In this document: piece after piece, positions 20,052-57,339 of the stretch
Layout of the letters: each line of letters opens with the position of its first letter
Position numbering within the stretch: the stretch's first letter is position 1
NCBI GenBank assembly: GCA_023443625.1
Contig: JAEZTQ010000011.1
Span: 62,001-126,000, forward strand
DNA: 64,000 bases
Source: Bacillota bacterium
Lineage (GTDB): Bacteria; Bacillota_A; Clostridia; Lachnospirales; Lachnospiraceae
Direction of reading: 5' to 3'
Made by a program: the position numbers and the translations under genes
The notes under the pieces: generated by a model
What the model was told of the DNA's origin: nothing
Database searches by the model: none
What the model saw: the letters and a program-made list of their open reading frames with translations, nothing else

Positions 20052-20142
20052 ATAATATTGCAATCTAGATTAATAAAGTTCACGTTGTGCAATTTGGATA
20101 CATGATTGCCCACAGTTGTGAAGAATAGCTCTATTTTGATTC

Positions 20143-20191
20143 GGGTCTGTCTTTAGGAAAAGATATATAATCGAAGAACTGAGACAGACCC
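20143..20191 (+). promoter_or_regulatory. Intercistronic hairpin between cel48 and cel9
   Basis: GGGTCTGTCT and AGACAGACCC form a perfect 10-bp stem with a 29-base loop. No T-run follows, so it is more likely an RNA-stabilising or processing hairpin, or a weak attenuator, than a full terminator. It sits 92 bases after the cel48 stop, inside the 209-base gap before cel9. Confidence 0.55.
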
Positions 20192-20260
20192 ATCATAATT
20201 TCTCAAATCATTCGTTATAAAGGAAATAAGAAGGTACCTATATAGAGAAGGAGGTAAGGT

Positions 20261-22750
20261 ATGCGTAAAATTCTGAGTATAGTATTAAGTGTTTGTATTG
20301 TTATCACGATTATACAATTTAAGCCTATGGATGTACAAGCGGATGCTAATTATAATTATGGAGAGGCTTTGCAAAAGTCTATCATGTTCTATGAATTTCA
20401 AAGATCAGGCGATCTACCCAGTGATATCAGAAGTAACTGGAGGGGAGATTCAGGCCTTAGCGATGGATCCGATGTAGGACTGGATCTTACGGGAGGCTGG
20501 TATGATGCAGGAGATCATGTTAAGTTTAATCTACCCATGGCATATTCAGCAACTATGTTGGGATGGAGTGTTTATGAATCCAGAGATGCCCTAGAGAGAT
20601 CAGGGCAATTGGATTATCTGTTAGAGGAAATTAGATGGGCTAGTGATTATTTTATAAAGTGCCACCCTTCGGCTAATGTATATTATTATCAGGTTGGCTC
20701 AGGCAGTGCGGATCATTCCTGGTGGGGACCGGCAGAAGTTATGCAGATGGCTCGTCCCTCCTATAAGGTGGATTTATCAAGCCCTGGTTCAGCAGTAACG
20801 GCTGAGGCAGCTGCAGCCTTGGCATCAGCTGCATTGGCATTTGCAGATACGGATCCTACCTATGCTGCAACCTGTATTAGGCATGCGAAGGAATTATTTT
20901 CATATTCAGATACCGTAAAGAGCGATAGCGGATATACGGCAGCGAGTGGTTTTTATAGCCTTCACGGTGGTTTTTATGATGAATTATCCTGGGCAGGTGT
21001 ATGGTTATATCTTGCCACGGGTGATTCAACATATCTGACAAAAGCGGAAAGCTATGTGGCAAATTGGGGTAAGGAAGGACAATCCACAGACTTAGCATAT
21101 AAATGGACACATTGCTGGGATGATGTACATTATGGAGCAGGCCTTCTTCTTGCACAAGCAACGGGCAAGGATATTTACAAAAACTTTATGGAGATGTATC
21201 TGGATTACTGGACAACAGGATATAATGGAAGCCGAATTACTTATACACCGAAGGGACTTGCATGGTTGGATTCCTGGGGTTCCTTAAGATATTCCACAAC
21301 AACTGCATTCTTAGCCAGTGTGTATGCTGATTGGTCAGGCTGTACTGCAAGCAAAGTATCCACCTATGAGGCTTTTGTTAAACAGCAGATTGATTATGCA
21401 TTAGGAAGTACGGGACGCAGTTATGTTGTAGGCTTTGGAACTAATCCACCGGAGCATCCTCACCATAGAACAGCACACAGCTCATGGGCTGACAGTCTGT
21501 CCGTACCTACCTATAGCAGACATACGCTATATGGCGCACTGGTAGGAGGCCCAGGCAGTAACGATGGCTATACCGATACCATTGACAACTATGTTAATAA
21601 TGAAGTTGCATGTGATTATAATGCTGGCTTTGTAGGTGCTCTGGCTAAGCTTTATGATGTCTATGGTGGTAATCCAATTTCTAATTTCACTGCATTTGAG
21701 ACTGTTACTAATGATGAATTCTTTGTTGAAGCTGGAATAAATGCATCAGGATCTAATTTTATAGAAATTAAGTCACTGCTATATAATCAGACGGGTTGGC
21801 CGGCAAGAATGGGTGATAAACTATCCTTTAAATATTTTGTGAATATTTCAGAGGCAATCAATCTAGGCTATACTGCATCGAATATCACTGTTACGACCAA
21901 TTATAATGGAGGAGCCACGGTATCACAGCTTCTGCCTTGGGACGTGGCGAACAATATCTATTATGTAAATGTTGATTATACCGGAACCAAGATATATCCT
22001 GGAGGACAGTCAAATTATAGAAAAGAAGTTCAGTTCCGTATTGCTGGACCGATGAACACCAGTTTTTGGAATAATGCCAACGATTATTCCTATACAGGGC
22101 TTAATGGCGTAACTTCGGGTAATGTGGTAAAGACCACCTATATTCCTGTATACGATAACGGAGTTAAGGTATTTGGTAATGAACCGGGAGCACCAACGGG
22201 AACAGTAACCCCTACACCAACACTGACCCCTACTGTAACTCCTATCGTCACTCCAACACCAACGGTAACACCAACACCAACGGTAACACCGACACCAACA
22301 CTGACTCCCACCCCTACAGTTACACCAACCCCTGTAGTAACCCCGATTCCAGGAACAGCAATCCCGGCAGCATCGGTTACTACCAATCAAAATGGTAATA
22401 CAGTAAGTCAACAGTACACCATATGGGCAGAGAGCGGGACAGTTGATCTGTCAAAAGTTGAACTTGTCTTTACAGCGGATGGTATGAGCAGTGCTCCACA
22501 GAATGTATGGTGCGATACTGCAGCATTACAGCTGAATGTATCTCCCTATTATTCCAGTATAACAGGCAAGGTACAGGGTGCCATAGCAGATGCAGCTTTG
22601 ACAATTACCTTTAATGAAGCCATATCTCTGGTAAGTGGAACAGGAACATGTAATATAAGCCTTCGCTTTGCAAAAACAGACTGGTCAAACTATGATACCT
22701 TATCCAATCCTGTTCTGAAGGTATATTATGATGGAGCCCTTGTGCAGTAA
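20261..22750 (+). CDS. cel9: GH9 endoglucanase with CBM3c and CBM3 modules
   Basis: The 829-aa product has a signal peptide ending near VQA (residue 27). Residues about 31-465 are GH9: [11 protein letters not shown] (catalytic Asp82/Asp85), the histidine signature [17 protein letters not shown], and the general acid Glu448 in [16 protein letters not shown]3c-like module follows at about 478-640; in theme-B GH9 enzymes this makes them processive. Then come a Thr-Pro linker and a second CBM3 (about 703-829) closely resembling that of Cel48. AAGGAGGTAAGGT precedes the ATG. No dockerin is present. Together with Cel48 it should form the main crystalline-cellulose-degrading pair. Confidence 0.95.
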
Positions 22751-22895: not shown

Positions 22896-23195
22896 CTATA
22901 GCACATCCTCTACAATATTTAATTCACCAGTTAGTTTACTTAATTCTTCTGACATGTATTTTTGAAAGGCTACTTCTTCCTCATTCTGGTAGCCAGTAAA
23001 AACCACAGTTTCAATACCCTTATGATCAAAAAGATAGGAGTCTTCTGGTCGGATTTGCCCTTCAGGATACAGGCATCCAATATAATCCCAGATTTTCTCT
23101 TGTTCATCCTGTCTTTGCAATCTACCATATATCATAAGTTTCCTCTGTGCACCTTCTAGTAGTACAACGGAACCTATAGGTAATAAATTAGTCAT
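22896..23195 (-). CDS. DUF4176-like protein
   Basis: The 99-aa product has the DUF4176 pattern: LLPIGSVVLLEGAQRKLMIY near the start, DYIGCLYPEGQI in the middle, and VVFTGYQNEEEVAFQKYM near the end. The family is usually met near type VII secretion genes and its function is unknown. No WXG100 or EssC gene is present here. The ATG overlaps the end of the glycosyltransferase gene by eight bases, with GGAGGTGG upstream, so it is the last gene of the glycosyltransferase operon and translationally coupled. Confidence 0.75.
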   Translation of the reverse strand: MTNLLPIGSVVLLEGAQRKLMIYGRLQRQDEQEKIWDYIGCLYPEGQIRPEDSYLFDHKGIETVVFTGYQNEEEVAFQKYMSEELSKLTGELNIVEDVL

Positions 23196-24552
23196 TCATG
23201 CCACCTCCAAATTTATTTTCAATGCTAATAACCTTTAAAACAATATAATCTATCTCATATTCATGTACAAGATAATCCTGATTAAGCTCATCAAGGCATT
23301 TTTCTAATTCATGAATTTTCTCCTCTTGAATAAATAGGGAGGGATTATTGTTTACCATAATTTCGCAAATTAAATAAACTGACCTTCCAATTCTCATAGC
23401 TTCTTTTATTATATGGAATAACCATACTTCGTTGATGTACAGCCAAAAGTCTGTGATTAATACAGCATCATATTCCTTGGTAATAGGAGTTGAAGCACCC
23501 AGACAATTGTACACGGTACCATCAGGGAGCAGGGTAAGAAGTTGCTGGTAATAATCCTTTGCATATTCCAGAACATGTGCATTGGGTATGTATCTGAGGA
23601 TGGAACCATTGTATCCGCCGAATATTAAGATGGATTTATCCTCTAAGAAATAGAATAGATTTTCGGCGTCTATATTATTAAAATCAAACCGCTCAGCTTC
23701 TAACAAAATCTTCATATAGAAATTAAGGTTAAGATCATTACCGCAATAGCAAAATTCGCTTTCGATACACTGATGTCTTTCATGAAAAATCAGAGTATTA
23801 CGACCATTTGATTCGTTTTTTTCTCCAAACTCTGCACAGGGGGAGTGGGGGATATGGATTAGCTCAGCATGCTTTCCAATGGAAAAGGGGATTCCTGCTT
23901 TAAAGATCCTAAGCCCTAAGTCAATGTCCTCCATACCCCAGGTAACAAAGCTTTCATCAAACATAACAGAGCCAGTTAATACCTGCCTTGGTACGGATAC
24001 ATTACATGTCCAAAAATAATGCCATGGAGCAGGAGCCAGGGATAAGTCGTAATTAAGCTCAGAGTAACCATAAGTACGATAATCTACATAAGCTTCTCTT
24101 TGTCGAAAATGTTTTAAAGACTTTTCAATATCTGTTATATCAAAAAGTTCATAAAATTCCTCATCCTCCGTAGGTGTATATAAAGCATATACAACGCCTA
24201 TCACAACAGAATTTCTATTAGGGCTATTGGCTATGCAATGCTCGTAAATTAAATCTTTACCTGCAACAACGCCCGAATCAAGAAAAATAATCCGACTGCC
24301 CTTGGCAGCAAGAATACCTTGATTTCTAATTTTAGAGGGTGCGTGCCCGATATGTTCATGATAGATATAGTTAATGCTTAATAATCGACTGTATTTATCC
24401 ACCATATATTTAGTATCGTCATTAGAACCATCATCCACGATAACAATTTCAAATGTCATATCCCGCAAATCCTGCTTCAATAAAGAGACTAAAGTTAATT
24501 CAAGGAGTTTACTCCTATTATAGGTGGGAATGACTACAGAAGCATCATACAT
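23188..24552 (-). CDS. Family 2 glycosyltransferase with C-terminal extension
   Basis: The 454-aa product has an N-terminal GT-A domain: ASVVIPTYNRSKLLELTLVS, the nucleotide-sugar acidic motif IVIVDDGSNDDT, and FVTWGMEDIDLGLRIFKAG, typical of the galactosyltransferase-like acceptor/catalytic region. The last 200 residues form an uncharacterised domain (ILIFGGYNGSILRYI, ITDFWLYINEVWLFHIIKEA) that looks Rossmann-like. It is cytoplasmic. The start is at MYDASVV; 17 extra codons upstream come from a dispersed hairpin element. It probably builds a surface or protein-linked glycan with its two neighbours; the substrate is unknown. Confidence 0.85.
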   Translation of the reverse strand: MYDASVVIPTYNRSKLLELTLVSLLKQDLRDMTFEIVIVDDGSNDDTKYMVDKYSRLLSINYIYHEHIGHAPSKIRNQGILAAKGSRIIFLDSGVVAGKDLIYEHCIANSPNRNSVVIGVVYALYTPTEDEEFYELFDITDIEKSLKHFRQREAYVDYRTYGYSELNYDLSLAPAPWHYFWTCNVSVPRQVLTGSVMFDESFVTWGMEDIDLGLRIFKAGIPFSIGKHAELIHIPHSPCAEFGEKNESNGRNTLIFHERHQCIESEFCYCGNDLNLNFYMKILLEAERFDFNNIDAENLFYFLEDKSILIFGGYNGSILRYIPNAHVLEYAKDYYQQLLTLLPDGTVYNCLGASTPITKEYDAVLITDFWLYINEVWLFHIIKEAMRIGRSVYLICEIMVNNNPSLFIQEEKIHELEKCLDELNQDYLVHEYEIDYIVLKVISIENKFGGGMND

Positions 24553-24559
24553 AATAATA

Positions 24560-24735
24560 ACCATGCCTTTCCGTAACCTGCAAACTTTGAGCCGCAGGCA
24601 CAAAATTGTGTGTGAAAATATTTTTTCACACTAAAAGTACATGCCTTCCATTTGAGTTAGTTTGTGCCGAGGATTACGCAGGCACAAACTTCTAGGTGTG
24701 AATTATGCTTTTCAATAATTCACACTGTCTCCATT
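24560..24735 (-). repeat. Compound hairpin element (copy 1)
   Basis: Read on the minus strand, three stem-loops follow one another. A GTGTGAATTAT/ATAATTCACAC hairpin comes first, then GTTTGTGCC/GGCACAAAC with a loop containing CGTAATCCTC, then GTGTGAAAA/TTTTCACAC. A near-identical set stands at about 42120-42240. Both copies have the same orientation relative to the gene just downstream and both lie between two co-directional genes. Confidence 0.7.
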
Positions 24736-24737
24736 AC

Positions 24738-25613
24738 TTAATAGGGTATATGAAAGGTATCAAAAAACCAGTCATCATCATGCACTCTGCGATTTTTATA
24801 TTTGTTTCTCTGATTCCAGACACCGCTGGAAAGAACCTCCTCCACAACCTCTTTCATGTCGGGATCGTCACTGATTCTTTTGAGAATTTTACTTAGTCTT
24901 GTTGCATTATAATGGGTGCAAGCCATCCATAATATATTGTGATTCATATGATACCAATCAAATTTGTAGGTATAGGACTCTTTGAATAAATGTTTAATTA
25001 CAATATCAGGATGTAGAACAGCTTTGTACCCAAAAAGCCAGGCTTTTAGTGACAGTTCTGCATCCTCTGAGCCATATATTTTATAATGACTGTCAAATCC
25101 TCCTATATCATGAAAGACCGCCGCTCGAATAGCCATAAAGCAGCTGCATACAAAGGGTATATAACAAGGAGAATCAGGTTTCACATTGGACCAATTGATA
25201 TCGCCATTTTTGTTCATGGTCAAACCATACCCGATTGCTTCCGGTTGGGTTAAAGAGGCTACTGCTGGGGCAAGAAGATCAGCGTGCATTAGCTTCATAA
25301 AATCAATCATATGATCAAGCCATCCATCAGGAACTTGAACATGGGAATCACAGAAAAATAGTATCTCTCCACTAGCATGAGAAGCACCTAGGTTCCGCGC
25401 ATTGGAGGTACCCAAACCTGGAGTTTTGACAAGTGTTACATATTCTTCGTAGGGAGGGTTATGCAGAAAATCACTACATCCATCATCAGAACCATCATCT
25501 ATAACGATGATTTCCATTAGACGCTTATTTTCAGTATTCATTAAGGAATCTAAGGTCATTTTCAAATTATCTCGTTCATTTTTACTGATTATTATTACAG
25601 AAGCATCCAGCAT
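24738..25613 (-). CDS. Family 2 glycosyltransferase
   Basis: The 291-aa product is a compact GT-A enzyme. It has ASVIIISKNERDNLKMTLDS at the N-terminus, the acidic motif IVIDDGSDDG, GLGTSNARNLGASHASGEIL leading to FCDSHVQVPDGWL (a DxD-like site), and GGFDSHYKIYGSEDAELSLK, the conserved ED of the acceptor loop. The start is placed at MLDASV because GGGGAGGTTAAT precedes it. This leaves 17 bases after the upstream GT4 gene, so the two are in one operon. The sugar specificity is unknown. Confidence 0.88.
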   Translation of the reverse strand: MLDASVIIISKNERDNLKMTLDSLMNTENKRLMEIIVIDDGSDDGCSDFLHNPPYEEYVTLVKTPGLGTSNARNLGASHASGEILFFCDSHVQVPDGWLDHMIDFMKLMHADLLAPAVASLTQPEAIGYGLTMNKNGDINWSNVKPDSPCYIPFVCSCFMAIRAAVFHDIGGFDSHYKIYGSEDAELSLKAWLFGYKAVLHPDIVIKHLFKESYTYKFDWYHMNHNILWMACTHYNATRLSKILKRISDDPDMKEVVEEVLSSGVWNQRNKYKNRRVHDDDWFFDTFHIPY

Positions 25614-25630
25614 ATTAACCTCCCCAAAGA

Positions 25631-26917
25631 TTACAAGGATTCCAACAAGGGTTCCATTTGATTCTTCCATATCCAGCTAGGGCTAAAGCGTTGCCTTGCA
25701 ATAGTTTTGGCATGTAAAACTGTATTAGTCATCATCTGATTCACAATCTCTATGGCATGGGCTTGAAAAAAATCATACTCAGAGGGTGAATAATTTTCTT
25801 TCAAATATACGCCTGATATATTAGCATCCCAAGGCAGGAAGTAGGCTTGCAAATGCTTACCTAATTCCTCCAGCGCCGGAACATTACGATTTAAGACGAT
25901 GAAGTTCCCCCTGCTGGCAGCTTCAATAACAGTTAGCTGGAAGGCCTCTGACATAGAAGAAGAAATGAAAAGGTTGGATAAGGTAAATAACTCTAATATG
26001 GCACTTCTTGGGAAGCCATTAGGAAAGCCCAGGTCACTGGTAAAGACCATATCTGTCATATCCAGGCCATAGTTGCAGCCCTCCTCCTGTACCAGAGCTT
26101 TATATTCGTCATTATCTGTATCCTCAGAGGGGACATCACAAAAAATTACTTTTACTGATTTATGGGTACTAGTTTTTATGCTTCCAGCCAGTGCAGCTAC
26201 TTTTTTAAATTGCTTATCTGGTGTAAATCGGGCAGGATATACGATCAAGATATCAGGAGTAAATAAATCCACCTCCCTAGCTACCTTTATCATAGGCTCG
26301 CTCATATAACGGAGCATATCCAGGCAGTTATTTACTACTCGACATTTTCCTTCTACAATACCATATTGCTTTGCCAGGGCAGGTAATAGAGCATAGGTAA
26401 AGGTTATATAAGTAGTGTTTGGCATGGGAGTAAAACGAGCTGAGAAGGGATAATCGGGCTTATGGGGAGGAGGAGCGGGCGCTGAGTGGCTAAAGGACAG
26501 GAATTTAACCTTTGGAAGGTGTTCTTGTGCTTTACGAAGGGCCACATTATTAATTAAATGCACAGAATGATAGAGTATGTCGTGGATAATACATACATCA
26601 ACATCAGCTAATTTAATAACAAGATCCTTGGCGATAGTATCAGCTTCTTCAAAAAATGTATCATGAACCTCACCATAAGGTTCATTATAGTCATACCATT
26701 CAATAGGTTTGCCCTTATAGGTATTGGATACTTTTACCCATTCAATTCTTTTATCAAGAAATATGCCATGCCTTTCTTCATCCAAACATTGCTCACAAAC
26801 AAGCATTTTTGTTTCAATATTGGCATCTAACAGCATTGTTAAATGGTCAGCAGCTACGCTTACCAGGGAATTAGTACTTTGTAGATGTCCATATAAAGTT
26901 AATAGAGCAATCTTCAT
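25631..26917 (-). CDS. GT4-like glycosyltransferase
   Basis: The 428-aa product has the two-lobed GT-B layout. The N-terminal lobe begins MKIALLTLYGHLQSTNSL. The C-terminal lobe contains DILIVYPARFTPDKQFKKVA and a donor-binding region SNLFISSSMSEAFQLTVIEA followed by ASRGNFIVLN, which match the GT4 pattern with the E-x7-E-like motif. It should use a nucleotide sugar and retain anomeric configuration. AAAGGAG lies upstream of the ATG. It is the first gene of the minus-strand operon with two GT2 enzymes and the DUF4176 protein. Confidence 0.82.
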   Translation of the reverse strand: MKIALLTLYGHLQSTNSLVSVAADHLTMLLDANIETKMLVCEQCLDEERHGIFLDKRIEWVKVSNTYKGKPIEWYDYNEPYGEVHDTFFEEADTIAKDLVIKLADVDVCIIHDILYHSVHLINNVALRKAQEHLPKVKFLSFSHSAPAPPPHKPDYPFSARFTPMPNTTYITFTYALLPALAKQYGIVEGKCRVVNNCLDMLRYMSEPMIKVAREVDLFTPDILIVYPARFTPDKQFKKVAALAGSIKTSTHKSVKVIFCDVPSEDTDNDEYKALVQEEGCNYGLDMTDMVFTSDLGFPNGFPRSAILELFTLSNLFISSSMSEAFQLTVIEAASRGNFIVLNRNVPALEELGKHLQAYFLPWDANISGVYLKENYSPSEYDFFQAHAIEIVNQMMTNTVLHAKTIARQRFSPSWIWKNQMEPLLESL

Positions 26918-27995: not shown

Positions 27996-28198
27996 TAGTA
28001 ATTTGAAATTTTATATGATATCTAATTAGTAATGAATTAATTAAGGAAGCTTTCTTGTTTTTCAGTCTTAATTATTACGATATATGACTTTTGGAGAAAA
28101 ATAATATATATTTGCTCAGTAAAAGTTTGACTGCATTTTGGACATGGTATAAAATGGTAAATAGGATTAGACAAGAAATACAGGAAGGAGGTTTTGAT

Positions 28199-28441
28199 GT
28201 GGAAACTTTTGTAGGAACAATTGAACTTTTTGCTTTTGGGTTTGCGCCCAGAGGCTGGAAGTTATGTGACGGCACTTCTCTACCTGTTAATTCATTCCCA
28301 GTTCTTTATTCACTAATTGGTGTCACATATGGCGGCGATGGACGCAGTACATTTAATATTCCCAATCTGCTTGGGACAGAACCGCTGCCTTACATGAAGT
28401 ATTACATTGCAATTGACGGACTTTACCCTACTAGACCGTAA
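28199..28441 (+). CDS. Tail-collar (MdpB-like) mini-protein 1
   Basis: The 80-aa product starts at a GTG with AAGGAGG seven bases upstream; a longer open frame has no ribosome site. GTIELFAFGFAPRGWKLCDG, then LYSLIGVTYGGDGRSTFNIP and NLLGTEP are the classical phage tail-collar/microcystin-dependent-protein motifs. The protein is about half the usual length and ends in YYIAIDGLYPTRP. It is the first of three tandem paralogues. Free-standing collar proteins of this type are seen outside prophages; their role is unknown. No other phage structural gene is present. Confidence 0.85.
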   Translation: METFVGTIELFAFGFAPRGWKLCDGTSLPVNSFPVLYSLIGVTYGGDGRSTFNIPNLLGTEPLPYMKYYIAIDGLYPTRP

Positions 28442-28479
28442 AATTTATTAATTATTTGAATGAAAGGCAGGTAAATGAT

Positions 28480-28734
28480 ATGGAACCTTATCTGGGACAA
28501 ATACAGCTGTTCGCCTTCGGCTTTGCTCCTGACGGATGGTTATTATGTAACGGAGCATTATTACAGATTAATGAAAATGTGGCTTTATACTCTTTGCTTG
28601 GTACCAAATTTGGAGGGGATGGTCAGACGAACTTTGCTATTCCTAATCTTGTTGGTGCCAGACCACAAAATGTTACTTCCAATTACATGTGCTATTACAT
28701 AGCAAGTGAGGGCTATTATCCACCACGCAGTTAG
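28480..28734 (+). CDS. Tail-collar (MdpB-like) mini-protein 2
   Basis: The 84-aa paralogue has GQIQLFAFGFAPDGWLLCNG, LYSLLGTKFGGDGQTNFAIP and a C-terminal CYYIASEGYYPPRS. The start at MEPYLG is preceded by AAAGGCAGG. It lies 38 bases after its neighbour in the same operon. The two conserved cysteines of the first copy are reduced to a partly different set, so a disulphide role is not conserved. Confidence 0.83.
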   Translation: MEPYLGQIQLFAFGFAPDGWLLCNGALLQINENVALYSLLGTKFGGDGQTNFAIPNLVGARPQNVTSNYMCYYIASEGYYPPRS

Positions 28735-28769
28735 ATTATATGAAAAACAGATAGAAGGAAGGTGTCACT

Positions 28770-29012
28770 TTGGATCCATTCTTAGGAACTATAAAATTAT
28801 TTCCCTTAGATTTTGAGCCACAGGGCTGGATGCTTTGCAATGGCAGGCAATTAACTATTACACAGCACCAAGCGCTGTATGCATTAATTGGCAATAGGTA
28901 TGGTGGTGACGGAAGGACGAATTTTAATTTGCCAAACTTAACGGGTGCAGAGCCGTTCCCCGGTATGAAATATTACATAGCATATATTGGTTTATTTCCC
29001 ACCAGAGATTAG
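28770..29012 (+). CDS. Tail-collar (MdpB-like) mini-protein 3
   Basis: The 80-aa paralogue begins at a TTG with GGAAGG upstream. GTIKLFPLDFEPQGWMLCNG, LYALIGNRYGGDGRTNFNLP and YYIAYIGLFPTRD match the other two. Three collar genes with different start codons (GTG, ATG, TTG) suggest duplication followed by tuning of translation. The next gene, 31 bases downstream, encodes a discoidin-like adhesion protein. Confidence 0.83.
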   Translation: MDPFLGTIKLFPLDFEPQGWMLCNGRQLTITQHQALYALIGNRYGGDGRTNFNLPNLTGAEPFPGMKYYIAYIGLFPTRD

Positions 29013-29043
29013 CAGTTGATTTTTTATGAAAGGATGTGAAACA

Positions 29044-30063
29044 ATGGGTAATATTGCTTTAAATAAAGCTACATCATCTAATTTCTCTGTTTTGCCATTT
29101 ACACCGAATAAAGCAGTGACAGGAGATGCTTCAGCACTAAATAGATGGATTGGGACGGTACCCGGTTGGATTAAGGTGGATCTGGGCAATCCATATTGGG
29201 TAAATAGCTGGATAATAAAAAATATGGGAATTCATAGTGATTGGGGCTCGAATTATAATATGGTTGATTATAAGCTGCAGGGTAGCGATGTGGACTCAGA
29301 GGATAGTGGGAATTGGATAGATATCTGCAGTATTACGAACAATAGCCAGAATATAACCCAGTGTAATTTTATACCATGCAGATATAGGTATTTCAGAACA
29401 TATGTAACAAAGGGCCTTCAATGTAACAAATCGACTGCCGCTATAATGGAATTTGAATTATATGAATATACAAATCTTCCCTATCTGTCGGCACTGACTT
29501 TAACGGCCGGAACCTTAAGTCCAGCATTCAACAAGCAGGTATATAAGTACACGACAAAGGTTCCTCAAGGAATCAGTCAGATAGCAGTAACACCAACAAC
29601 AACCGCTACCAATGCAATAATCACCGTGAATGATCAAATAGTACAAAATCAGACACAATCACAGTATATTCCTATAAATAATACCGGTACTACGGATATT
29701 ACAGTAAAAGTAGTTGTTGATGGCACCTATATCAGTGAAGCTTATACCATAACCGTTACTAAAGAACAAGTTTCACAGTATTTAGATAATCTGGTAGTGA
29801 ATGGTGCCATAAGAATGATGCCAGCCTTTAACAGTCTTACTTCTACATATAATGTCATTGTTACTGCTGGAAGGACCAGTGTAACTATAACCCCAACTGC
29901 AAAAACATCTGGTTCTACAGTAAACGTAAGCGGCCGATCGGTAACTAGCGGGCAGACTTCACAGCCAATTGATCTCTTAGTAGGACAAAATAAAATACTT
30001 GTTTATGTAGAAAATACATCTCAACAATTTATCTACACGTTTAATGTCAATAGACCTAGCTAA
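29044..30063 (+). CDS. Discoidin-like protein with two cadherin-like sandwich repeats
   Basis: The 339-aa product opens with an F5/8 type C (discoidin)-like domain: NIALNKATSSNFSVLPFTPN, then KAVTGDASALNRWIGTVPGW and IKVDLGNPYWVNSWIIKNMG. Two about 90-residue cadherin-like beta-sandwich units follow, each starting with LSALTLTAGTLSPAF or LDNLVVNGAIRMMPAFNSLT. Discoidin domains bind carbohydrates. No signal peptide is visible, so export would need another route, as for the collar proteins before it. AAAGGATGTG precedes the ATG. It ends before a 100-base gap and the next secreted protein. Confidence 0.8.
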   Translation: MGNIALNKATSSNFSVLPFTPNKAVTGDASALNRWIGTVPGWIKVDLGNPYWVNSWIIKNMGIHSDWGSNYNMVDYKLQGSDVDSEDSGNWIDICSITNNSQNITQCNFIPCRYRYFRTYVTKGLQCNKSTAAIMEFELYEYTNLPYLSALTLTAGTLSPAFNKQVYKYTTKVPQGISQIAVTPTTTATNAIITVNDQIVQNQTQSQYIPINNTGTTDITVKVVVDGTYISEAYTITVTKEQVSQYLDNLVVNGAIRMMPAFNSLTSTYNVIVTAGRTSVTITPTAKTSGSTVNVSGRSVTSGQTSQPIDLLVGQNKILVYVENTSQQFIYTFNVNRPS

Positions 30064-30162: not shown

Positions 30163-33045
30163 GTGAAAGGAATAAAAAAAGTTATAATAACTATTATTTG
30201 TATAGCAGCTTTTTATGCTATATTACCGGCTTCCGTAAATGCCGCAGAGGCAGCCTGGTCAGATGCAGTCACTATTAACGACCCAAGTGCACTTACTAGT
30301 TCTCAACCATTTTTTGTAGCTGGGGATAATGTATTATATAGCGCCTGGTCGGAAAAATCAGGGACAAATAATATTATTAGGGTAAAGAAATACGATGGCT
30401 CTACCTGGAGTTATATCGATAATGGCGGCATTAATTATAATCGGTCAATGAGTGCATATAATCCATACCTTATAATAATTGATAATACCCTATATGCTGC
30501 ATGGGAAGAAGAAAACATTGTGGGGCAACTTTCTACTATTATTCGAGTTAAGAAATACGATGGATCTTCCTGGAGCTCTGTGGATGGGGATGCTGGTATT
30601 AGCTATGATTTTTATCAAGATTCTGAAAATGTATTTCTGCAAGTACATAACGGCAGCCTTTATGCTGCTTGGAGTGAAACCTTTAATGGGGCAATATATC
30701 AACTACATGTAAAAAAATACTTGGGTGGAAACTCCTGGTCTTCAGAGGATTATGGCTCAGTTAACGGGTTGAATTATGATAATGATTATTCAGCTCTTAA
30801 TCCCAGTCTAGCTTCCTATAACAACAAGCTATATTTAATATGGACAGAGCCTGATATAGGCAATGTTTATCAGATAAATATGAAATGTTTTGATGGCAGT
30901 AGCTGGAGCCTAGTTGGCTATGGTATGAACGCTGATCCAGGTAATTATGCCCAATCACCAAAGCTTTTTGTACTGAACAATTCTTTGTTTGCTGCTTGGT
31001 ATGAAATGGGAGCAACAGATTTAATCAGACTGAAAAAATATAATGGAGTTTCCTGGGAGCTTGTTGATGGCGGTCAGCTGAATAAATCAACATCACTCTA
31101 TGTATTTAATTTAGAGGGTTTGGTTTATAACAATACCTTATATTTATCCTGGGTTGAGATGCTAAGTGATTCTATAAGTCAATTGACCATGGTATTGAAA
31201 TATGACGGTAATACAGTTACTTATCTGGAGGGTGACAATCTTAATACAGGTATAAACTTAGCAAATTCCGATTCCAATAGTGCACCAGCCATGGCTGTGT
31301 TCAATAAAAGCCTCTATGTTGCCTGGGTAGAAAACAACTCAATATACCAAAGAAGTTTTATCCTCCCACATAGCAAGATTTCATCACCTGTCAATCTGAC
31401 GGAAGAAACTCTAGATTTAGCAAGCTTAAGCCTTGCCCTCTATGGAACCAGTTTCAATAGCAATACTCTGGATAAGAACCATTTTTCTCTTGTAAATGCA
31501 CCGCAGGGTCTAAGTATTGAAAAGGTAACTTATAATAACAGCAGCCAATGCACAGTTGATTTAGCTTTTGATGGTACAGATTTTGACACGGATATATCAA
31601 ATCTCAGTGTTATTGTCGACGGTTTTGAAGTTATAGATGGGATGAGTTTGACGGATACGAATACTATGCCTATTACGGCAACAAAGGATACGGAATCAAT
31701 ATCAATTATAGATGATGGTGCAATATGGGAAGGGGAAGAGAATGGTGAGATAATAACTGTAACCTTACATGGAGGTACCTTTGCAAAAACCATTCACGCT
31801 GCAGACTGGACAGTTTCAAATCTGCCGGCAGGTGTGACAAAAGGTTCTGTGGTAAGGACTGATGCTCATACAGTTAGTATAATCTTATCCGGTAATTCAA
31901 CTACAGATTATGATACAGATATTACAAATATATCAGTTACCTGCCCGGACAGTGATTATGTGGATTCCACAGGAGGTGGAAGCCTTACTGCAGATAAGGG
32001 CGTAGTACTTAAATCAAAGAATATTCATTTAAATGTTATGGCAGGAGCAGGCGGAACATTTAAAATAAATGATGGTGTAGAGCTTCCCATCTATAATGAT
32101 GAATTCACACGGGGTACTCTTATAAAACTTACAGCTGTACCAGTGGGAACCTTTAGCTTTGCCTACTGGCTGGATGTGGCATCCTCAAGTATCGTCTCAA
32201 CTAATCCAGTTTATGAATTTACTGTAGGTACCGGAGTGTATCTACAGGCAGTCTTCCAGACGAATCAAGCAGATCTATTCAATGTAGTATTTAAGGATCC
32301 ATCGGGAAGAATACTCAGTAACCAATTAGTCTCCAATGGTAGTGCGGCAGCAGAGCCAAAGAATACGTTTATTATGGGATATGAGTTCTTAGGTTGGGAT
32401 AAGGACTTTAGTAATGTCACTGGGAATATGGAAGTAATGGCTAAGTACAGGAGATTACCAGACACATATCATCTCACAGTTACAAATGGAACTATTACGA
32501 CAGGAGGAAGTACCGGCGATTATAAATATGATACCCTCGTTACGGTTATAGCTGATATGGCTCCTACGGATAAGAAATTCGCATATTGGACAATGGATGG
32601 AGTTATTGTCAGCAGAAGTATGAGCTATAGTTTCTATACTATTATGGGCTCTATGAATTTAACTGCGGAATATGTTGATCTCTCAACCCCTATACCAAAT
32701 GATCCACTAATTGCATTATTGCCCCTTGTAGCTATTGACGCCGATCATAACTCCATGCTCTTTATTGCTAACAGGGATCTTGTTCCAAGTGGCTCTACTC
32801 TCATTGAAAGCGGCTTCCTGCTTTATAAAGCCAGTGACAGCTGGAGCGGAGAACTCACGGTAGATACATTAAATATAATCACCGCTAAGGTGAAAAATAC
32901 ATCAACCAATCAATTCTATATTCGAAAGAATAATATAGTTGCGGGGGAAACCTGGTATGTCAGGACTTATATGATCTATCGGGATACCGCAGGAAATGTT
33001 CAGATAGCCTACAGTACCAATACAGTTAACGGTAAAATATCATAG
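30163..33045 (+). CDS. Large secreted protein: beta-propeller-like repeats plus InlB-type repeat
   Basis: The 960-aa product has a Sec signal peptide (core VIITIICIAAFYAILPASVNA). Residues about 35-400 hold repeats of roughly 55 residues with IRVKKYDGSSWSSVDG and LYAAWSE motifs, consistent with a beta-propeller. Then come two sandwich units with SISIIDDGAIWEGEENGEI, an InlB B-repeat-like unit (VVFKDPSGRILSNQLVSNG, YEFLGWDKDFSNVTGNMEVM), and a C-terminal domain. There is no LPXTG motif or membrane anchor, so it is released or non-covalently attached. The start is GTG with AAGGAG 11 bases upstream. It directly precedes the 46-aa peptide gene. Confidence 0.82.
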   Translation: MKGIKKVIITIICIAAFYAILPASVNAAEAAWSDAVTINDPSALTSSQPFFVAGDNVLYSAWSEKSGTNNIIRVKKYDGSTWSYIDNGGINYNRSMSAYNPYLIIIDNTLYAAWEEENIVGQLSTIIRVKKYDGSSWSSVDGDAGISYDFYQDSENVFLQVHNGSLYAAWSETFNGAIYQLHVKKYLGGNSWSSEDYGSVNGLNYDNDYSALNPSLASYNNKLYLIWTEPDIGNVYQINMKCFDGSSWSLVGYGMNADPGNYAQSPKLFVLNNSLFAAWYEMGATDLIRLKKYNGVSWELVDGGQLNKSTSLYVFNLEGLVYNNTLYLSWVEMLSDSISQLTMVLKYDGNTVTYLEGDNLNTGINLANSDSNSAPAMAVFNKSLYVAWVENNSIYQRSFILPHSKISSPVNLTEETLDLASLSLALYGTSFNSNTLDKNHFSLVNAPQGLSIEKVTYNNSSQCTVDLAFDGTDFDTDISNLSVIVDGFEVIDGMSLTDTNTMPITATKDTESISIIDDGAIWEGEENGEIITVTLHGGTFAKTIHAADWTVSNLPAGVTKGSVVRTDAHTVSIILSGNSTTDYDTDITNISVTCPDSDYVDSTGGGSLTADKGVVLKSKNIHLNVMAGAGGTFKINDGVELPIYNDEFTRGTLIKLTAVPVGTFSFAYWLDVASSSIVSTNPVYEFTVGTGVYLQAVFQTNQADLFNVVFKDPSGRILSNQLVSNGSAAAEPKNTFIMGYEFLGWDKDFSNVTGNMEVMAKYRRLPDTYHLTVTNGTITTGGSTGDYKYDTLVTVIADMAPTDKKFAYWTMDGVIVSRSMSYSFYTIMGSMNLTAEYVDLSTPIPNDPLIALLPLVAIDADHNSMLFIANRDLVPSGSTLIESGFLLYKASDSWSGELTVDTLNIITAKVKNTSTNQFYIRKNNIVAGETWYVRTYMIYRDTAGNVQIAYSTNTVNGKIS

Positions 33046-33067: not shown

Positions 33068-33208
33068 ATGATGGAATATAAGAGCAGTAATGAGAACAAG
33101 AAAACTTATGAAAAGCCGGAAATAGAAATAATGGTATTTGAAACAGAGAAAATCTGTTTCAGTGGTTTAGGTGAAAGCTTTGGAATGGACGGCATTGGCA
33201 TAGACTAA
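33068..33208 (+). CDS. Putative RiPP precursor peptide, 46 aa
   Basis: A strong GGAGGGTG site precedes MMEYKSSNENKKTYEKPEIE. The rest is IMVFETEKICFSGLGESFGM and DGIGID. YEKPEI matches the YxxPxL/I leader motif that lasso-type precursors use to bind the PqqD-like RRE protein, which is encoded two genes downstream. The C-terminal 17 residues are rich in Gly and Ser with one Cys and a terminal Asp, a plausible core. The classification rests on leader motif and neighbours. No cyclase is encoded, so the modification is unknown. Confidence 0.7.
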   Translation: MMEYKSSNENKKTYEKPEIEIMVFETEKICFSGLGESFGMDGIGID

Positions 33209-33265
33209 GAGCCGATAATCATTTTTATTAATTAGTATTAGTTTACATACCTAAGGAGATTTTAT

Positions 33266-34000
33266 ATGCTGTTTAAAATAGCAGATTTAACCGTAGCAGT
33301 GGATTGTTCAGAGAAAACTTTAAAGGAGCATATCATAAATTATCAGGTGATTGAATATGGTAATCCGGATATTGATCTTCAAAGGGATTCAAAAGTATTA
33401 AGGGATTTACGGGAGAATTATTCATATTTAACAGCCGATGAACTGGAATATACTTATACCGGTTATGAGTTTTCCAACTCCTTACTTGATTTTAACGGTT
33501 TCTGCCTCCATGCTTCAGCTATATCCTTAGATCATAATGCAATCTTATTCTCTGCCCCGAGTGGTACGGGTAAATCCACCCATACCGGATTATGGCATAA
33601 TTATTTTGGAAATAACAGGCTTATTATCATTAATGATGATAAGCCTGCAATCCGTTATATTGAAGACTATTTTTATGTCTATGGAACTCCCTGGAGCGGA
33701 AAATGCAATTTACAGGCAGATGTGAAAATACCTCTGAAAGCCATTGTATTTATAAAGCAGTCAAATAGGAATGATATCAGAAGATTGGATAACAGAGAAG
33801 CTGTTTGTTCAATTATGCAAAATAGCATAAAGCCTCAGGGTAATCGGGATAAGATGAACGCCCTGTTAGATTTGCATGATGCTGTAGTTAAAAGGATACC
33901 AATATATGAATTAAGCTGTAACATGAGTTTAGAGGCAGTAAAGCTGGTTTATAATACGGTTTTTCATAAAGAGCAGGAAGTAATGAGGATAGAAGGATGA
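33266..34000 (+). CDS. HPr-kinase-like protein of a RiPP-type cassette
   Basis: The 244-aa product contains a P-loop in FSAPSGTGKSTHTGLWHNYF and IINDDKPAIRYIEDYFYVYG followed by GTPWSGK, which match the HPr kinase fold. Similar proteins in lasso-peptide clusters phosphorylate a C-terminal serine of the precursor. Here the substrate could be the 46-aa peptide, although its last residue is Asp. The N-terminal 75 residues replace the HPr-binding part of true HPrK. AAGGAG lies before the ATG. Its stop overlaps the PqqD start (ATGA). Confidence 0.85.
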   Translation: MLFKIADLTVAVDCSEKTLKEHIINYQVIEYGNPDIDLQRDSKVLRDLRENYSYLTADELEYTYTGYEFSNSLLDFNGFCLHASAISLDHNAILFSAPSGTGKSTHTGLWHNYFGNNRLIIINDDKPAIRYIEDYFYVYGTPWSGKCNLQADVKIPLKAIVFIKQSNRNDIRRLDNREAVCSIMQNSIKPQGNRDKMNALLDLHDAVVKRIPIYELSCNMSLEAVKLVYNTVFHKEQEVMRIEG

Positions 34001-34260
34001 GAGTAAAACAAGATTACCTCTTAAGGGAGGTAGCAGATACCTATGTGGTAGTCCCTACGGGAAATGCAGCTCTAGATTTCAGTGGTATGATAACCTTGAA
34101 TGAAACGGGAGCTTTCCTTTGGAAACAGCTTGTAACAGATCGGACCGAAGAGGAATTAATCCAGATGCTTTTAGAGGAGTATTATATTGATGAAGCTACT
34201 GCTACACTGGATTTAAAGGAATATATATCAAAGCTAAAGGCGGCTGATTTATTTGAGTAG
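33997..34260 (+). CDS. PqqD-family protein (RiPP recognition element)
   Basis: The 87-aa product has the PqqD winged-helix pattern: YLLREVADTYVVVPTG, LDFSGMITLNETGAFLWKQL, then a helical tail with LLEEYYIDEATATLDLKEYI. PqqD/RRE proteins bind the leader of a precursor peptide and deliver it to the modifying enzymes. It is coupled to the HPrK-like gene by a 4-base overlap and overlaps the next gene by eight bases. The partner peptide is most likely the 46-aa product upstream. Confidence 0.9.
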   Translation: MRVKQDYLLREVADTYVVVPTGNAALDFSGMITLNETGAFLWKQLVTDRTEEELIQMLLEEYYIDEATATLDLKEYISKLKAADLFE

Positions 34261-34720
34261 AGTAGTATCAATGAAGGAACTTTCACCATTAATTAAGGAA
34301 GCGCTGCAGGAAGGAAGAGAAGTTATAATCAATATAACCGGTAACAGCATGGAGCCGCTTTTATACGAACACAGGGATAAGGTTAGTATCGTAAAGCCCT
34401 CTGATGATATGCTGACGAAATATAGGATTCCTCTTTATCAGAGTAGTGATGGAGTCTACAAACTACATCGAATCATTGCAGTAGGAAAGCAGGGTTTCGT
34501 TATGGCGGGAGACCATCAGTGGGAAAAAGAATGTCAAATCCAGCCTTCCCAGGTCTATGGAGTAGTGAAAGGCTTTTGGAGAAAGGGAAATTATATCTCT
34601 TGCCATAAATTCTGGTACTGCCTTTACAGCAGATTATGGGTTGGGATATTTCCTTTTCGGCGCTTTTTGATTAGAGGAGCAGCTTTACTACATTTATGGA
34701 GAAAAGACTATGAAAGATGA
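34253..34720 (+). CDS. S26-type signal-peptidase-like protein
   Basis: The 155-aa product has the serine of a signal peptidase/LexA-type catalytic dyad in INITGNSMEPLLYEHRDKVS and the general-base lysine in GVYKLHRIIAVG, followed by GFVMAGDHQ. The hydrophobic helix usual at the N-terminus is missing; a basic, aromatic C-terminal stretch (FWYCLYSRLWVGIFPFRRFL) may associate with the membrane. It may cleave the leader peptide. The TTG start overlaps PqqD; an ATG six codons later is possible. The 3' end is duplicated into the tandem repeat that follows. Confidence 0.8.
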   Translation: MSRVVSMKELSPLIKEALQEGREVIINITGNSMEPLLYEHRDKVSIVKPSDDMLTKYRIPLYQSSDGVYKLHRIIAVGKQGFVMAGDHQWEKECQIQPSQVYGVVKGFWRKGNYISCHKFWYCLYSRLWVGIFPFRRFLIRGAALLHLWRKDYER

Positions 34721-34800
34721 GAAAAGACTATGAAAGATGAGAAAAGACTATGAAAGATAAGAAAAGACTATGAAAGATGAGAAAAGACTATGAAAGATAA
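34701..34800 (+). repeat. Five tandem 20-bp repeats at a gene junction
   Basis: GAAAAGACTATGAAAGATGA (or ending TAA) occurs five times in direct succession. The first unit holds the S26-like stop codon and the last the ABC-transporter start. Each unit contains an ATG and, because 20 is not a multiple of three, each ATG opens a seven-codon frame ending in a TGA that overlaps the next ATG. Slippage could change the copy number. Confidence 0.95.
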
Positions 34801-36484
34801 GAATACCCTGATATGGATATGTAGATGTTCTGGAAATCAATTTCATATTATGGTTATTTTGATATTAATAAATGCATTATATGCCGGATGTGGTGTGGTC
34901 TTCGCCTTAGCCTGCAAAAGCCTGGTTGATACAGCTTTCAAGGGAGAAGGTTTTATATTGTTATGGAAGGGACTGTATTTATTATTAGTTATTCTATTTC
35001 AATTTATATTACGTATTCTCAGCAGGATGCTAGAGGTTCGGATTCAGGGCAGGATGGAGATGTATTCTAAGACCACTCTTTTTGAAAAACTACTCAAAAA
35101 GGATTATACAGAAGTAAAAACCTATCACAGCGGGGAGCTACTTAACAGATTAACAGCAGATATAACTATCATCAGTGAGGGGGTTGCTACTATTTTACCG
35201 CAGTTTTCTGGTCAGCTTACCAGACTGGCAGGAGCACTTGCAGTATTATGTGTTATTGACTCAAAGTTTACCTTAGCTTTCCTATTCGGTGGCTTGATTA
35301 TATTCCTATCTTCAAGGTATTTTCGTAATAAGCTGAAAGACCTTCATAAGCGGATGCAGGAAAGGGACGGATTGGTACGCTCCTTTTTGCAGGAAGCTTT
35401 TGAAGATTTACTTATTATAAAGATATATGGAATAGAAGAGAGGATGAAACAAAGGGCAGTGGAGCTTCAGACGGAGCATTACATAGCTAAAATGGCCAAA
35501 AATAAAGTGAGTATATATGCAAATACCGGCTTTTCCATGCTATTTGCTCTCGGCTACCTGTATGCTCTCCTCTGGGGTTCCTTTCAAATTGTAACAAATG
35601 CAATCAGTTTTGGAACACTAACAGCGATATTGCAGCTTGTGGGGCAGATACAGGTACCATTTTCCGGCCTATCTGGACTAATGCCAAAAATATATGGAGT
35701 GATAGCTTCAGCAGAGAGGATAATGGAGCTTGAAGCTTTACCCGATGAAATTGAGATAAATACGAAAGAAGTGGATGCTCTATCCCTCTATAATGAACTT
35801 CAGACTATTAACTTAAATGAGGTTTCCTTCTGTTATGACCGTGAGTATGTACTGCATAAAGTGAATCTGATAATTAATAAAGGAGATCTTGTCCTAATAA
35901 CCGGTAGATCCGGTATTGGCAAAAGTACTCTTTTAAAGCTAATACTTGGAGTTTTGATCCCGCTGGAGGGAGAAATTAGTGTTTATCTGAACAATGGAAG
36001 CAGGATTTTAATTGACCGATACATAAGAAAGCTATTTGCTTATGTCCCTCAAAGAAACCTCATGCTTTCCGGAACAATCCGGGAAAATATAACCTTATTT
36101 AATACCCATATCACAAAAGAGAAGCTGATCAAAGCTGCCAAGTTGAGCTGTTCTATGGAATTTATCGAAGCCCTCCCCCTTGGTTTTGAGACAGTGATTG
36201 GAGAAAAAGGACAAGGGCTTTCAGAAGGACAGCTGCAGCGGATTGCAATAGCAAGAGCAATTTTATGCGAAGCTCCCGTGTTACTTCTTGATGAGGCTAC
36301 TTCTGCCCTAGATGAGACTACAGAGGTGAAACTACTTAATAATATCAAAGAAATGACAGATAAAACCTGTATCCTAATCAGCCATAAAAAAGCAGCCTTA
36401 GATGTCTGCAATAAAACAATTCACATAGAGAATCAAACTGTTATCATGGGAAGGAGGGGGCAAATTGAAAACAAGCTCCCTTGA
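34790..36484 (+). CDS. ABC exporter, fused membrane and ATPase domains
   Basis: The 564-aa product has an N-terminal six-helix membrane domain (for example VILILINALYAGCGVVFALA) and a C-terminal ATPase with Walker A (ITGRSGIGKSTLLKLILGVL), signature (GQGLSEGQLQRIAIARAIL) and Walker B (APVLLLDEATSALDE). There is no N-terminal C39 peptidase, so it would export but not cleave a peptide; the S26-like protein may supply that. The start lies inside the last 20-bp repeat. The neighbours suggest the exported compound is the modified 46-aa peptide. Confidence 0.92.
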   Translation: MKDKNTLIWICRCSGNQFHIMVILILINALYAGCGVVFALACKSLVDTAFKGEGFILLWKGLYLLLVILFQFILRILSRMLEVRIQGRMEMYSKTTLFEKLLKKDYTEVKTYHSGELLNRLTADITIISEGVATILPQFSGQLTRLAGALAVLCVIDSKFTLAFLFGGLIIFLSSRYFRNKLKDLHKRMQERDGLVRSFLQEAFEDLLIIKIYGIEERMKQRAVELQTEHYIAKMAKNKVSIYANTGFSMLFALGYLYALLWGSFQIVTNAISFGTLTAILQLVGQIQVPFSGLSGLMPKIYGVIASAERIMELEALPDEIEINTKEVDALSLYNELQTINLNEVSFCYDREYVLHKVNLIINKGDLVLITGRSGIGKSTLLKLILGVLIPLEGEISVYLNNGSRILIDRYIRKLFAYVPQRNLMLSGTIRENITLFNTHITKEKLIKAAKLSCSMEFIEALPLGFETVIGEKGQGLSEGQLQRIAIARAILCEAPVLLLDEATSALDETTEVKLLNNIKEMTDKTCILISHKKAALDVCNKTIHIENQTVIMGRRGQIENKLP

Positions 36485-37649
36485 AATAAAATATTTATTT
36501 ACTCTGCTATCTGCCATTTTAAAGGATCAGCAGCCTCAGACTCCCCCCAAGAAGCTTCATTGGGATAAGTTCTATACCTTGTCCCATAATCATTGTGTGG
36601 ACAATATGGTCTGGTATGGACTGAATAAGCTTAAGGAGGAAGATCAGCCTCCTAAGGAAATACTTCATAAATTTCATGGGGATTACAAAATGGGAATTGC
36701 CAGAGAGGCAACACAGCACATTGAAGTAGAAAAGCTTTTGCTATTATTTGAGGCAAACAGCATATCCTGCATGCCGCTGAAGGGCTATCTTTTGAAATAT
36801 CTGTATCCAAAACCTGACATGAGAAGGATGACCGATGTTGATATTCTTGCCAAGAGAGGGCAGGGGAAGGAAATTAATAAGCTCATGCTGGCAGCAGGTT
36901 TTCAACTAGATCATATAACAACCTATCATGATGTTTATATCAAGAAGCCTTTCGTAAATATTGAGCTTCACTGGACACTCATAGGTAAGAATTCCACCTA
37001 TTTTAATTACTTTAACAAGGAATGGGAGAGAGCCAACTTAAGAGAAGGATGTAGCGCGGTATATGAGCAGTCCATGGAAGCTTTTTATATCTTTATGATT
37101 GTTCATCTGACAAAGCATTTTACCAGCTCAGGAACAGGAATTCGCTCAATTATGGATATATGGGTATATATGCAGCACTATGATAATTTAATGGACTGGG
37201 ATTATGTGAACAAAGAATTAGGGAGGCTAAACTTATATCAATTTGCATGTAATATTAAAGAGCTTGCCAAGGTATGGTTTGATGGTGAACCGGATAATGA
37301 GCTATATAATGAGATGACAGAATATATTGCCTCCGGCAGCTTGTACGGTACCCAGAAGAATCATGTTATTTCTATTGTGAATAGCAGGAGCTTAGGGAAG
37401 CCCTCAGGGATTTCCTATAAACTGATCTATATACTAAGCCTCATTTTCCCTGAGGAAGAGAAGATGAAATCAAAATATCCAATTTTAAACAAGCTGTCCA
37501 TACTGTACCCTTTCCTCTGGATGCTTCGAGGAGCGGAGTATATCTTCCTTCGCCCCAGGGATGCATACCGTAAAATAAAAAAGTTGGATGCTGTTACAGG
37601 AAAGGATATTGATAAAGGATATGAATTCTTTAAGAAGGTGGGATTGTAG
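36465..37649 (+). CDS. Nucleotidyltransferase-like protein (NTP_transf_5 type)
   Basis: The 394-aa product has the family core ISCMPLKGYLLKYLYPKPDM followed by RRMTDVDILAK, with the two acidic residues expected to bind metal, and NIELHWTLIG further on. Members occur in lasso and other RiPP clusters, where they are thought to add a nucleotide or modify the peptide. The TTG start has GGAGGGGGCAAA upstream and overlaps the ABC gene by 20 bases. It is the last gene of the cassette and converges on a MerR gene. Confidence 0.82.
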   Translation: MKTSSLEIKYLFTLLSAILKDQQPQTPPKKLHWDKFYTLSHNHCVDNMVWYGLNKLKEEDQPPKEILHKFHGDYKMGIAREATQHIEVEKLLLLFEANSISCMPLKGYLLKYLYPKPDMRRMTDVDILAKRGQGKEINKLMLAAGFQLDHITTYHDVYIKKPFVNIELHWTLIGKNSTYFNYFNKEWERANLREGCSAVYEQSMEAFYIFMIVHLTKHFTSSGTGIRSIMDIWVYMQHYDNLMDWDYVNKELGRLNLYQFACNIKELAKVWFDGEPDNELYNEMTEYIASGSLYGTQKNHVISIVNSRSLGKPSGISYKLIYILSLIFPEEEKMKSKYPILNKLSILYPFLWMLRGAEYIFLRPRDAYRKIKKLDAVTGKDIDKGYEFFKKVGL

Positions 37650-57267: not shown

Positions 57268-57339
57268 AACCCTTGATTTTGCTAGCTTTTTTACACTTTT
57301 TGTGGTATACTTTTTATAGTAAACTAAGGAGCAAAAAAC

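Follow-up and report, generated by a model that had tools for sequence, protein, structure and literature searches.

A six-gene cassette for a putative linear phosphorylated peptide next to a predicted secreted protein in a member of the Lachnospiraceae

The window analysed here, 64,000 nucleotides from a member of the Lachnospiraceae (Bacillota bacterium, GenBank assembly GCA_023443625.1, contig JAEZTQ010000011.1), contains at positions 33,068-37,649 a cassette of six genes that probably produces a linear, leader-cleaved, (poly)phosphorylated and secreted peptide. This assignment is by analogy with the linear polyphosphorylated peptides (LPPs), a family of ribosomally synthesised and post-translationally modified peptides (RiPPs) described in Nature Communications in May 2026 (PMC13381572). 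As judged from the sequences, the cassette belongs to a separate, mostly clostridial branch that would work like an LPP system. Its precursor gene stands directly behind a gene for a large protein of secreted type, a coupling that was absent from the original prediction made for this DNA.

Gene content of the cassette and its match to the LPP clusters

The features of the cassette are as follows (aa, amino acids; ORF, open reading frame; RRE, RiPP recognition element).

33068-33208, + strand: 46-aa precursor peptide (ORF listing; match to the precursor profile, E 3.5e-10)
33107-33124, + strand: RRE motif Y14-E-K-P17-E-I19 of the precursor (alignment of 52 precursors)
33161-33163, + strand: Ser32 of the precursor, candidate phospho-acceptor, 18 residues after Tyr14 (alignment of 52 precursors)
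33266-34000, + strand: 244-aa HPrK-like kinase, LppK-like (homologs, invariant motif residues, HPrK/PEPCK fold match)
33997-34260, + strand: 87-aa PqqD-type RRE protein, LppB-like (PF05402, 1.9e-16)
34099-34101 and 34210-34212, + strand: residues N35 and D72 of the RRE protein (alignment of 15 sequences)
34253-34720, + strand: 155-aa S26-type leader peptidase, LppS-like, with a TTG start and no membrane anchor listed
Within the S26-type peptidase: Ser32, His72 and Asp87, invariant across 20 aligned relatives (S24/S26-group fold match with modest E-values)
34790-36484, + strand: 564-aa MsbA-like ABC exporter without C39 domain, LppD-like (Pfam, NCBIfam)
36465-37649, + strand: 394-aa NTP_transf_5 protein, LppN-like (PF14907, 4.8e-61)

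The gene set of the original prediction (a 46-aa peptide, an HPr-kinase-like protein, a PqqD/RRE protein, an S26-like peptidase, an ABC exporter without C39 domain and an NTP_transf_5 protein) was confirmed at these places on one strand. Its description of the genes as almost all overlapping was a little generous; three junctions do overlap, but two have gaps of 57 and 69 bp. The sequence GGAGG, which resembles a ribosome binding site, lies 11 bases 5' of the ATG of the 46-aa ORF, for which neither Pfam nor NCBIfam gave a match at E<=1. The exporter matched ABC_membrane (2e-29) and ABC_tran (2.2e-26), and a C39 peptidase was absent among the 19 Pfam families listed. A 20-bp tandem repeat (34699-34803, 5.2 copies, 96% matches) lies where the S26 gene ends and the exporter gene starts, and the stop/start junction ATGAAAGAT recurs in every unit; the repeat alters the spacing of these genes while the frames of both are kept. 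Promoter and terminator scans gave no more than the shuffled level. A defence system was also considered and rejected, five cassette proteins having no PADLOC match at E<=0.01.

Published LPP clusters have the order lppA-K-B-S-D-N, encoding precursor, HprK kinase, RRE, SipW-like peptidase, exporter and NTP transferase, and their core genes are those for an SpI peptidase, a discrete RRE, an HprK-like kinase, an NTP transferase and an MsbA-like transporter (PMC13381572). The window has this core gene set in this order, together with a YxxP leader, an RRE with Asn and Asp at the places of N33 and D70 of LppB and, in the 64 kb searched, no macrolactam cyclase in the unit. When the lpp set of Paenibacillus alginolyticus DSM5050 was placed in Bacillus subtilis, one to four phosphates were found on Ser3 of the core; the phosphate depended on the kinase and loss of the leader on the peptidase, the product was linear and cyclase-free, and deletion of the NTP transferase caused no detectable change (PMC13381572). 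LPP clusters are located in capsule loci, often adjoining paeninodin clusters, and their biological role is stated as unknown by the LPP authors (PMC13381572). The original prediction of a linear, phosphorylated peptide, made without cyclase and freed by an S26-like leader protease, agrees with this P. alginolyticus system of identical composition and order. Its suggestion of a different RiPP class was correct, and this class has meanwhile been described; gene set and order match those of the published LPPs (PMC13381572). When the same profiles were applied to 20 regions with S26 matches from the Paenibacillus doosanensis family, the published precursor type was present in 17 and the full printed order in ten, and 13 had a second kinase behind an SGGxDS ORF, which was taken as a lasso cluster.

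Neither the kinase nor the peptidase gave a significant Pfam match by sequence. The structural model of the kinase (predicted local distance difference test, pLDDT, 90.7) matched HPr kinase/phosphatase best and PEP carboxykinase next (best E 9e-6), with TM-scores by query length of merely about 0.3-0.47. Kinase homologs numbered 6,964 at E<=1e-3, and the matches listed carry PF27840. Residues H82, K103, D124 and D125 were invariant across 32 aligned proteins and appear to correspond to the His-Lys-Asp-Asp motif of lasso kinases (PMC9266682). In the RRE protein N35 was invariant and D72 was present in at least 90% of the 15 sequences; their spacing equals that of N33 and D70 of LppB, which help to hold the Tyr leader (PMC13381572). 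The LppB-leader complex was not found in the PDB by sequence search. Top fold matches of the peptidase model (pLDDT 91.5) were the LexA C-domain, paralog C of the human signal peptidase complex and SipA, with E-values of 1.3e-3 to 4.8e-3, all above 1e-3. Peptidase_S24 was matched by 9 of the 20 aligned relatives, the window's own protein not among them. The peptidase residues Ser32 and His72 are 40 positions apart, compared with 39 in LppS (S29, H68) (PMC13381572).

For comparison, 140 loci were collected, comprising the best 80 loci of a scan of genome contigs with the kinase alignment and further genome stretches; ORFs were chosen by a longest-ORF rule. The kinase was recognised in 136 loci, PqqD in 85, S26 in 80, the exporter in 68 and NTP_transf_5 in 47, numbers which are lower bounds because of contig ends and the longest-ORF calling. 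A precursor profile, trained in part on peptides that it then retrieved, matched 53 of 19,316 small ORFs at E<1e-3, after which the E-values stepped from 8.5e-5 to 0.011. These ORFs came from 49 of the 140 loci, where a YxxP-type peptide thus stands beside the other genes as the original prediction had anticipated; the profile recognised no precursor in the other 91, so that "always" does not hold. Most of them sit between a secreted-protein gene and the kinase gene, and some loci have two copies (L021, L035, L064, L215).

An alignment anchored on Tyr/Phe-x-x-Pro was made from 52 of the 53 peptides, without L227, which lacks YxxP; in it the L155 row is shifted out of register. Conserved after the Tyr/Phe were Phe at +10 (45 of 52), Glu at +13 (35) and Asp at +14 (35). 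Ser peaked at +18 (15) and +19 (25), and a Ser or Thr was present within +17 to +20 in 45 of the 52. The cores were mostly short, acidic and Gly-rich. A second precursor type, with MKKYVKP...EERLAGSxC-like leaders and cores with Cys, was seen at L091-L103 and L110 beside more distant kinase relatives (E about 1e-40 to 1e-53).

By analogy with the published LPP pathway, the PqqD/RRE protein would grip the 46-aa precursor through Y14xxP17xI19, and the HPrK-like kinase would add one or more phosphates to a Ser near the core start, most likely Ser32. The NTP_transf_5 protein may attach a sugar or nucleotide to the phosphate. The S26 Ser-His peptidase, together with the RRE, would then cut off the leader somewhere between residues 26 and 30, and the ABC exporter would secrete the roughly 16-20-residue acidic, Gly-rich core. 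The peptide might act at the cell surface with large secreted proteins, in the window with one that carries the C-terminal domain described below. Leader recognition, phosphorylation and leader removal have been shown for P. alginolyticus (PMC13381572). We infer these three steps for the window, and the NTP_transf_5 and export steps for the window and P. alginolyticus alike.

The upstream protein of secreted type and its C-terminal domain

Two further features belong to the gene 5' of the precursor.

30163-33045, + strand: 960-aa secreted-type protein with an InlB B-repeat domain, 22 bp 5' of the precursor (PF18998, 2e-7; own hydrophobicity rule)
32668-33042, + strand: CT domain, forming the C-terminal 125 residues of the 960-aa protein (CT profile, E 3e-42)

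A gene just 5' of the precursor was present in 45 loci and lay within 60 bp of it in 37. Its product was predicted to be secreted, according to a hydrophobicity threshold of our own, in 28 of 34 full-length cases (>=200 aa), against 136 of 723 other non-cassette ORFs, and had a median length of 834 aa, against 354 aa. Eighteen of the 45 upstream proteins, the 960-aa protein of the window included, end in a shared C-terminal domain of about 123 aa, designated CT. Among all 27 CT proteins in the 140 loci, CT was at most four residues from the C-terminus in 25, and 14 and 32 residues off in the others. The CT of the window had no match in Pfam or NCBIfam, and 12 CT copies tested against these databases showed single weak hits at most (best 0.014); one relative carries the InlB-repeat family only. 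We know of no enzyme that acts on the CT domain.

Because all loci were fetched through the kinase, the CT counts in the 140 loci are not independent of it, and whole-genome counts serve as the independent test. CT was found in 8 of 58 genomes from the order of Acetivibrio alkalicellulosi, 4 of 113 from the class of a Desulfotomaculaceae genome and 2 of 104 from the P. doosanensis family. The kinase lineage, at a threshold of E<=1e-60 picked after the gap was seen, was found in 6, 6 and 2 genomes of the same groups. Together, 12 of the 275 genomes had both, two the kinase only (G096, G181), two CT only (G026, G027) and 259 neither. The Fisher p of 2.7e-17 for this co-occurrence is descriptive only, since the genomes are related and usually one CT gene lies inside the cassette locus. 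At E<=1e-20 the three groups had 17 of 58, 8 of 113 and 2 of 104 genomes with the kinase; 6, 4 and 2 of these also had CT. Within the P. doosanensis family CT was restricted to the two cassette-bearing genomes (in G005 as a fragment only) and absent from the other 102; S26 relatives were present in 49 of the 104.

CT was also located far from the cassette, in 4 of 7 matches in G003 (L329-L332, in open frames of 6,607-7,273 aa), 2 of 5 in G001 (one of them a fragment) and 1 of 2 in G025. Ten stretches around CT proteins not beside a precursor contained no kinase, PqqD, S26 or SLH at E<=1e-5 and no precursor below E 0.4, and CT was at most two residues from the C-terminus in them. Two of these CT proteins (L335) are 5-12 kb away from their genome's own cassette, so that not every one is unlinked.

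Tail sharing was seen in 6 of 43 loci: there the C-terminal part of a secreted protein from the locus repeats the precursor's end better than the tail of any other locus does. The shared stretch is nine residues long in L217 and L028, seven in L240, six in L156, five in L164, and five with flanking matches in L036. Both ends coincide in L217 and L164; in L028 the stretch is among the last 60 residues but does not reach the end. Four of the partners match the SLH profile and are located 3' of the peptide gene. As the shared stretches differ at 2-4 synonymous codons, the likeness appears to be kept at the protein level. Tail sharing was absent from the remaining 37 loci, among them the window; the window scored 13, and 38 of the 43 tails score as well against the window core. 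In permutations the observed score of 916 (mean 749, standard deviation 25) was reached in none of 20,000. Dropping the three highest-scoring loci weakened the signal to p 0.02, and it vanished (p 0.12) once the fourth was dropped as well; tail sharing as a general rule was rejected. Of nine matches of at least five residues within a locus, three (L155, L047, L049) are to proteins on the opposite strand and are probably due to chance. Counts of SLH, BY-kinase and CpsB were obtained with profiles built on clusters, and Pfam confirmed SLH in three proteins only (L001, L002, L028).

Several neighbouring genes in the window were recorded as well. Encoded at 28091-30063, 5' of the 960-aa protein, are two small phage-tail-collar-like proteins (PF07484, 6.7e-22, for the first, which was tested) together with a protein that has F5/8 type C and cadherin-like domains. 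Three adjoining glycosyltransferase-like genes lie 5' of the surface genes at 23188-26917 (- strand), the two tested being Glycos_transf_2 and Glycos_transf_1. At 17505-22750 two ORFs of 848 and 829 aa have near-identical C-terminal ends; the first belongs to glycosyl hydrolase family 48, and the organism is probably cellulolytic. At 54975-59627 IS66-type transposase genes, of which the 533-aa one was identified by Pfam, were found amid ORFs that resemble parts of an MFS exporter gene in our own reading.

The clostridial lineage and alternative explanations

Several observations weigh against an LPP-type pathway in the window. In the kinase, NTP_transf_5 and RRE trees, which are unrooted with long branches, the window shares a clade with clostridial loci and with two Paenibacillus species, and this clade is separate from the paeninodin group and the Bacilli LPP group (support 99/90, 98/97 and 97/92, respectively); in the RRE and kinase trees it lies outside the LPP clade. 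The S26 tree, in which one of five SipW-type rows is missing and two rows from longer proteins were cut at 260 aa, may be compatible with separate recruitment of the two peptidases. The window sequence YEKPEIEIMVFETEKICFS departs from the published leader consensus YxxPxVLxHQxIxFETxxS, having FET three residues closer to the Tyr and no VLxHQ. In the peptidase Asp87 follows His72 by 15 residues, whereas D93 of LppS follows H68 by 25 (PMC13381572). In many of the 140 loci at least one cassette gene is missing, in part because of contig ends and the simple gene calling, and CT was not detected at E<=0.01 in 27 of the 45 upstream proteins. The peptide chemistry proposed for this lineage is drawn by analogy. 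Because of the separate clades and the different leader consensus, we regard the window as a divergent LPP-like lineage and not as a member of the printed clade.

A split or decayed lasso cluster, with cyclase and B2 protease elsewhere in the genome, would account for the leader motif, RRE, kinase and NTP_transf_5 protein, all common to paeninodin-type clusters (PMC13381572, PMC9266682), and the search for a cyclase at this locus covered the 64 kb of the window. Within the window no ORF with SGGxDS, the mark of lasso cyclases, was found among the non-overlapping ORFs of at least 90 aa, and the cassette has no ORF for a transglutaminase-type B2 protease. Among the 140 loci five SGGxDS ORFs were present, none of them lasso-cyclase-like, and two resemble GMP synthase (named by reading the sequences). 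As the original prediction had expected, the B2 protease was rare in relatives: it was found over the cut-off in one of 21 precursor-bearing genomes, whose completeness is not stated, and in three at E<=1e-3. The one genome over the cut-off, P. doosanensis (L020), would fit a split cluster. The RRE of the window has Asn35 where paeninodin RREs have Gly (PMC13381572), and its kinase stands apart from the paeninodin kinases in the tree. With B2 rare in the 21 genomes, no lasso-cyclase-like ORF in the 140 loci, this Asn35 and this kinase tree, we judge a split lasso cluster very unlikely. Even less probable, to the point of being nearly dismissible, is that the 46-aa ORF is not a gene and that the kinase, RRE and S26 set has another substrate. 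The ORF is short, it lacks database matches and the profile is silent in 91 loci; against this stand the GGAGG upstream, the wide E-value gap that sets apart 53 small ORFs, and the position of the matched ORFs between secreted-protein gene and kinase, in four loci as two copies.

A further reading, which we consider possible but doubtful, is that the machinery mainly serves surface proteins. CT-domain or SLH proteins would then use the peptide as carrier, decoy or docking part, and the phosphate, or a sugar on it, would link them to a wall polymer or to each other. Such a role extends the LPP-type pathway rather than opposing it. It would be favoured by the co-occurrence of CT and kinase in the 275 genomes, by CT proteins far from the cassette, by the locus-specific repeats of the peptide end with their synonymous codon differences, and by BY-kinase genes near 10 and CpsB near 3 of the 49 precursor loci. 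Tail sharing is confined to six loci, the window not among them, most upstream proteins have no detected CT, and the pairing of CT with this kinase is broken in four genomes, two with CT only and two with the kinase only.

Taken a step further, and with slightly less confidence still, the clostridial LPP loci could form a surface-protein assembly system. CT would then be a C-terminal tag on secreted proteins of a few hundred to several thousand residues, and the phosphorylated peptide would dock on CT, or on a partner of the SLH anchor tail, to attach, space or release tagged proteins at the wall. The case for this tentative surface role consists of gene linkage, the co-occurrence and, in a minority of loci, tail sharing. 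If true, the RiPP would serve the cell surface as a structural or assembly component rather than a diffusible signal or antibiotic. The link would also explain a gene set that is widespread in Bacillota (6,964 kinase homologs) and would amount to a new way to organise large surface proteins. With its upstream gene, a CT domain co-occurring in three taxonomic groups and shared tails in some loci, the clostridial lineage offers a concrete handle on the role of LPPs. The main text of the LPP paper contains zero occurrences of Clostridi-, S-layer, SLH or surface protein (PMC13381572), and a literature search found no report linking such peptides to surface proteins. The peptide-pathway idea has already been published; what appears new is the surface coupling, the CT domain and the tail repeats.

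Comparison with known systems

The CT proteins recall the PEP-CTERM/exosortase system in that several proteins per genome share one C-terminal element; this is a likeness of pattern only, and CT differs in being a domain of about 123 aa. HprK-related kinase A and SynChlorMet ScmC (TIGR04352, TIGR04249) share the HPrK-like kinase with the window, and their cassettes are accompanied by PqqD-type proteins. The window kinase matched both weakly (ScmC 1.4e-8, HprK_rel_A 0.0072), far under the curated cut-offs, with 34 bits against 125 and 15.5 against 200. The paeninodin-type and pseudomycoidin lasso peptides have in common with the window a YxxP/WxxP leader, an RRE, an HPrK-like kinase and a nucleotidyltransferase-like protein, whereas the window cassette lacks cyclase and B2 protease and has another leader peptidase; their acceptor Ser is at the C-terminus, and the candidate Ser of the window is near the core start (PMC9266682). 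From the LPPs of P. alginolyticus the window differs in its leader consensus, in its separate clade in the kinase, NTP_transf_5 and RRE trees, and in its setting: it is of the locus type that usually follows a secreted-protein gene, while the published LPPs often adjoin a paeninodin cluster. It shares with them the six-gene core and its order, the Asn and Asp of the RRE, a Ser at Tyr +18, a SipW-like Ser-His peptidase and the absence of a cyclase (PMC13381572).

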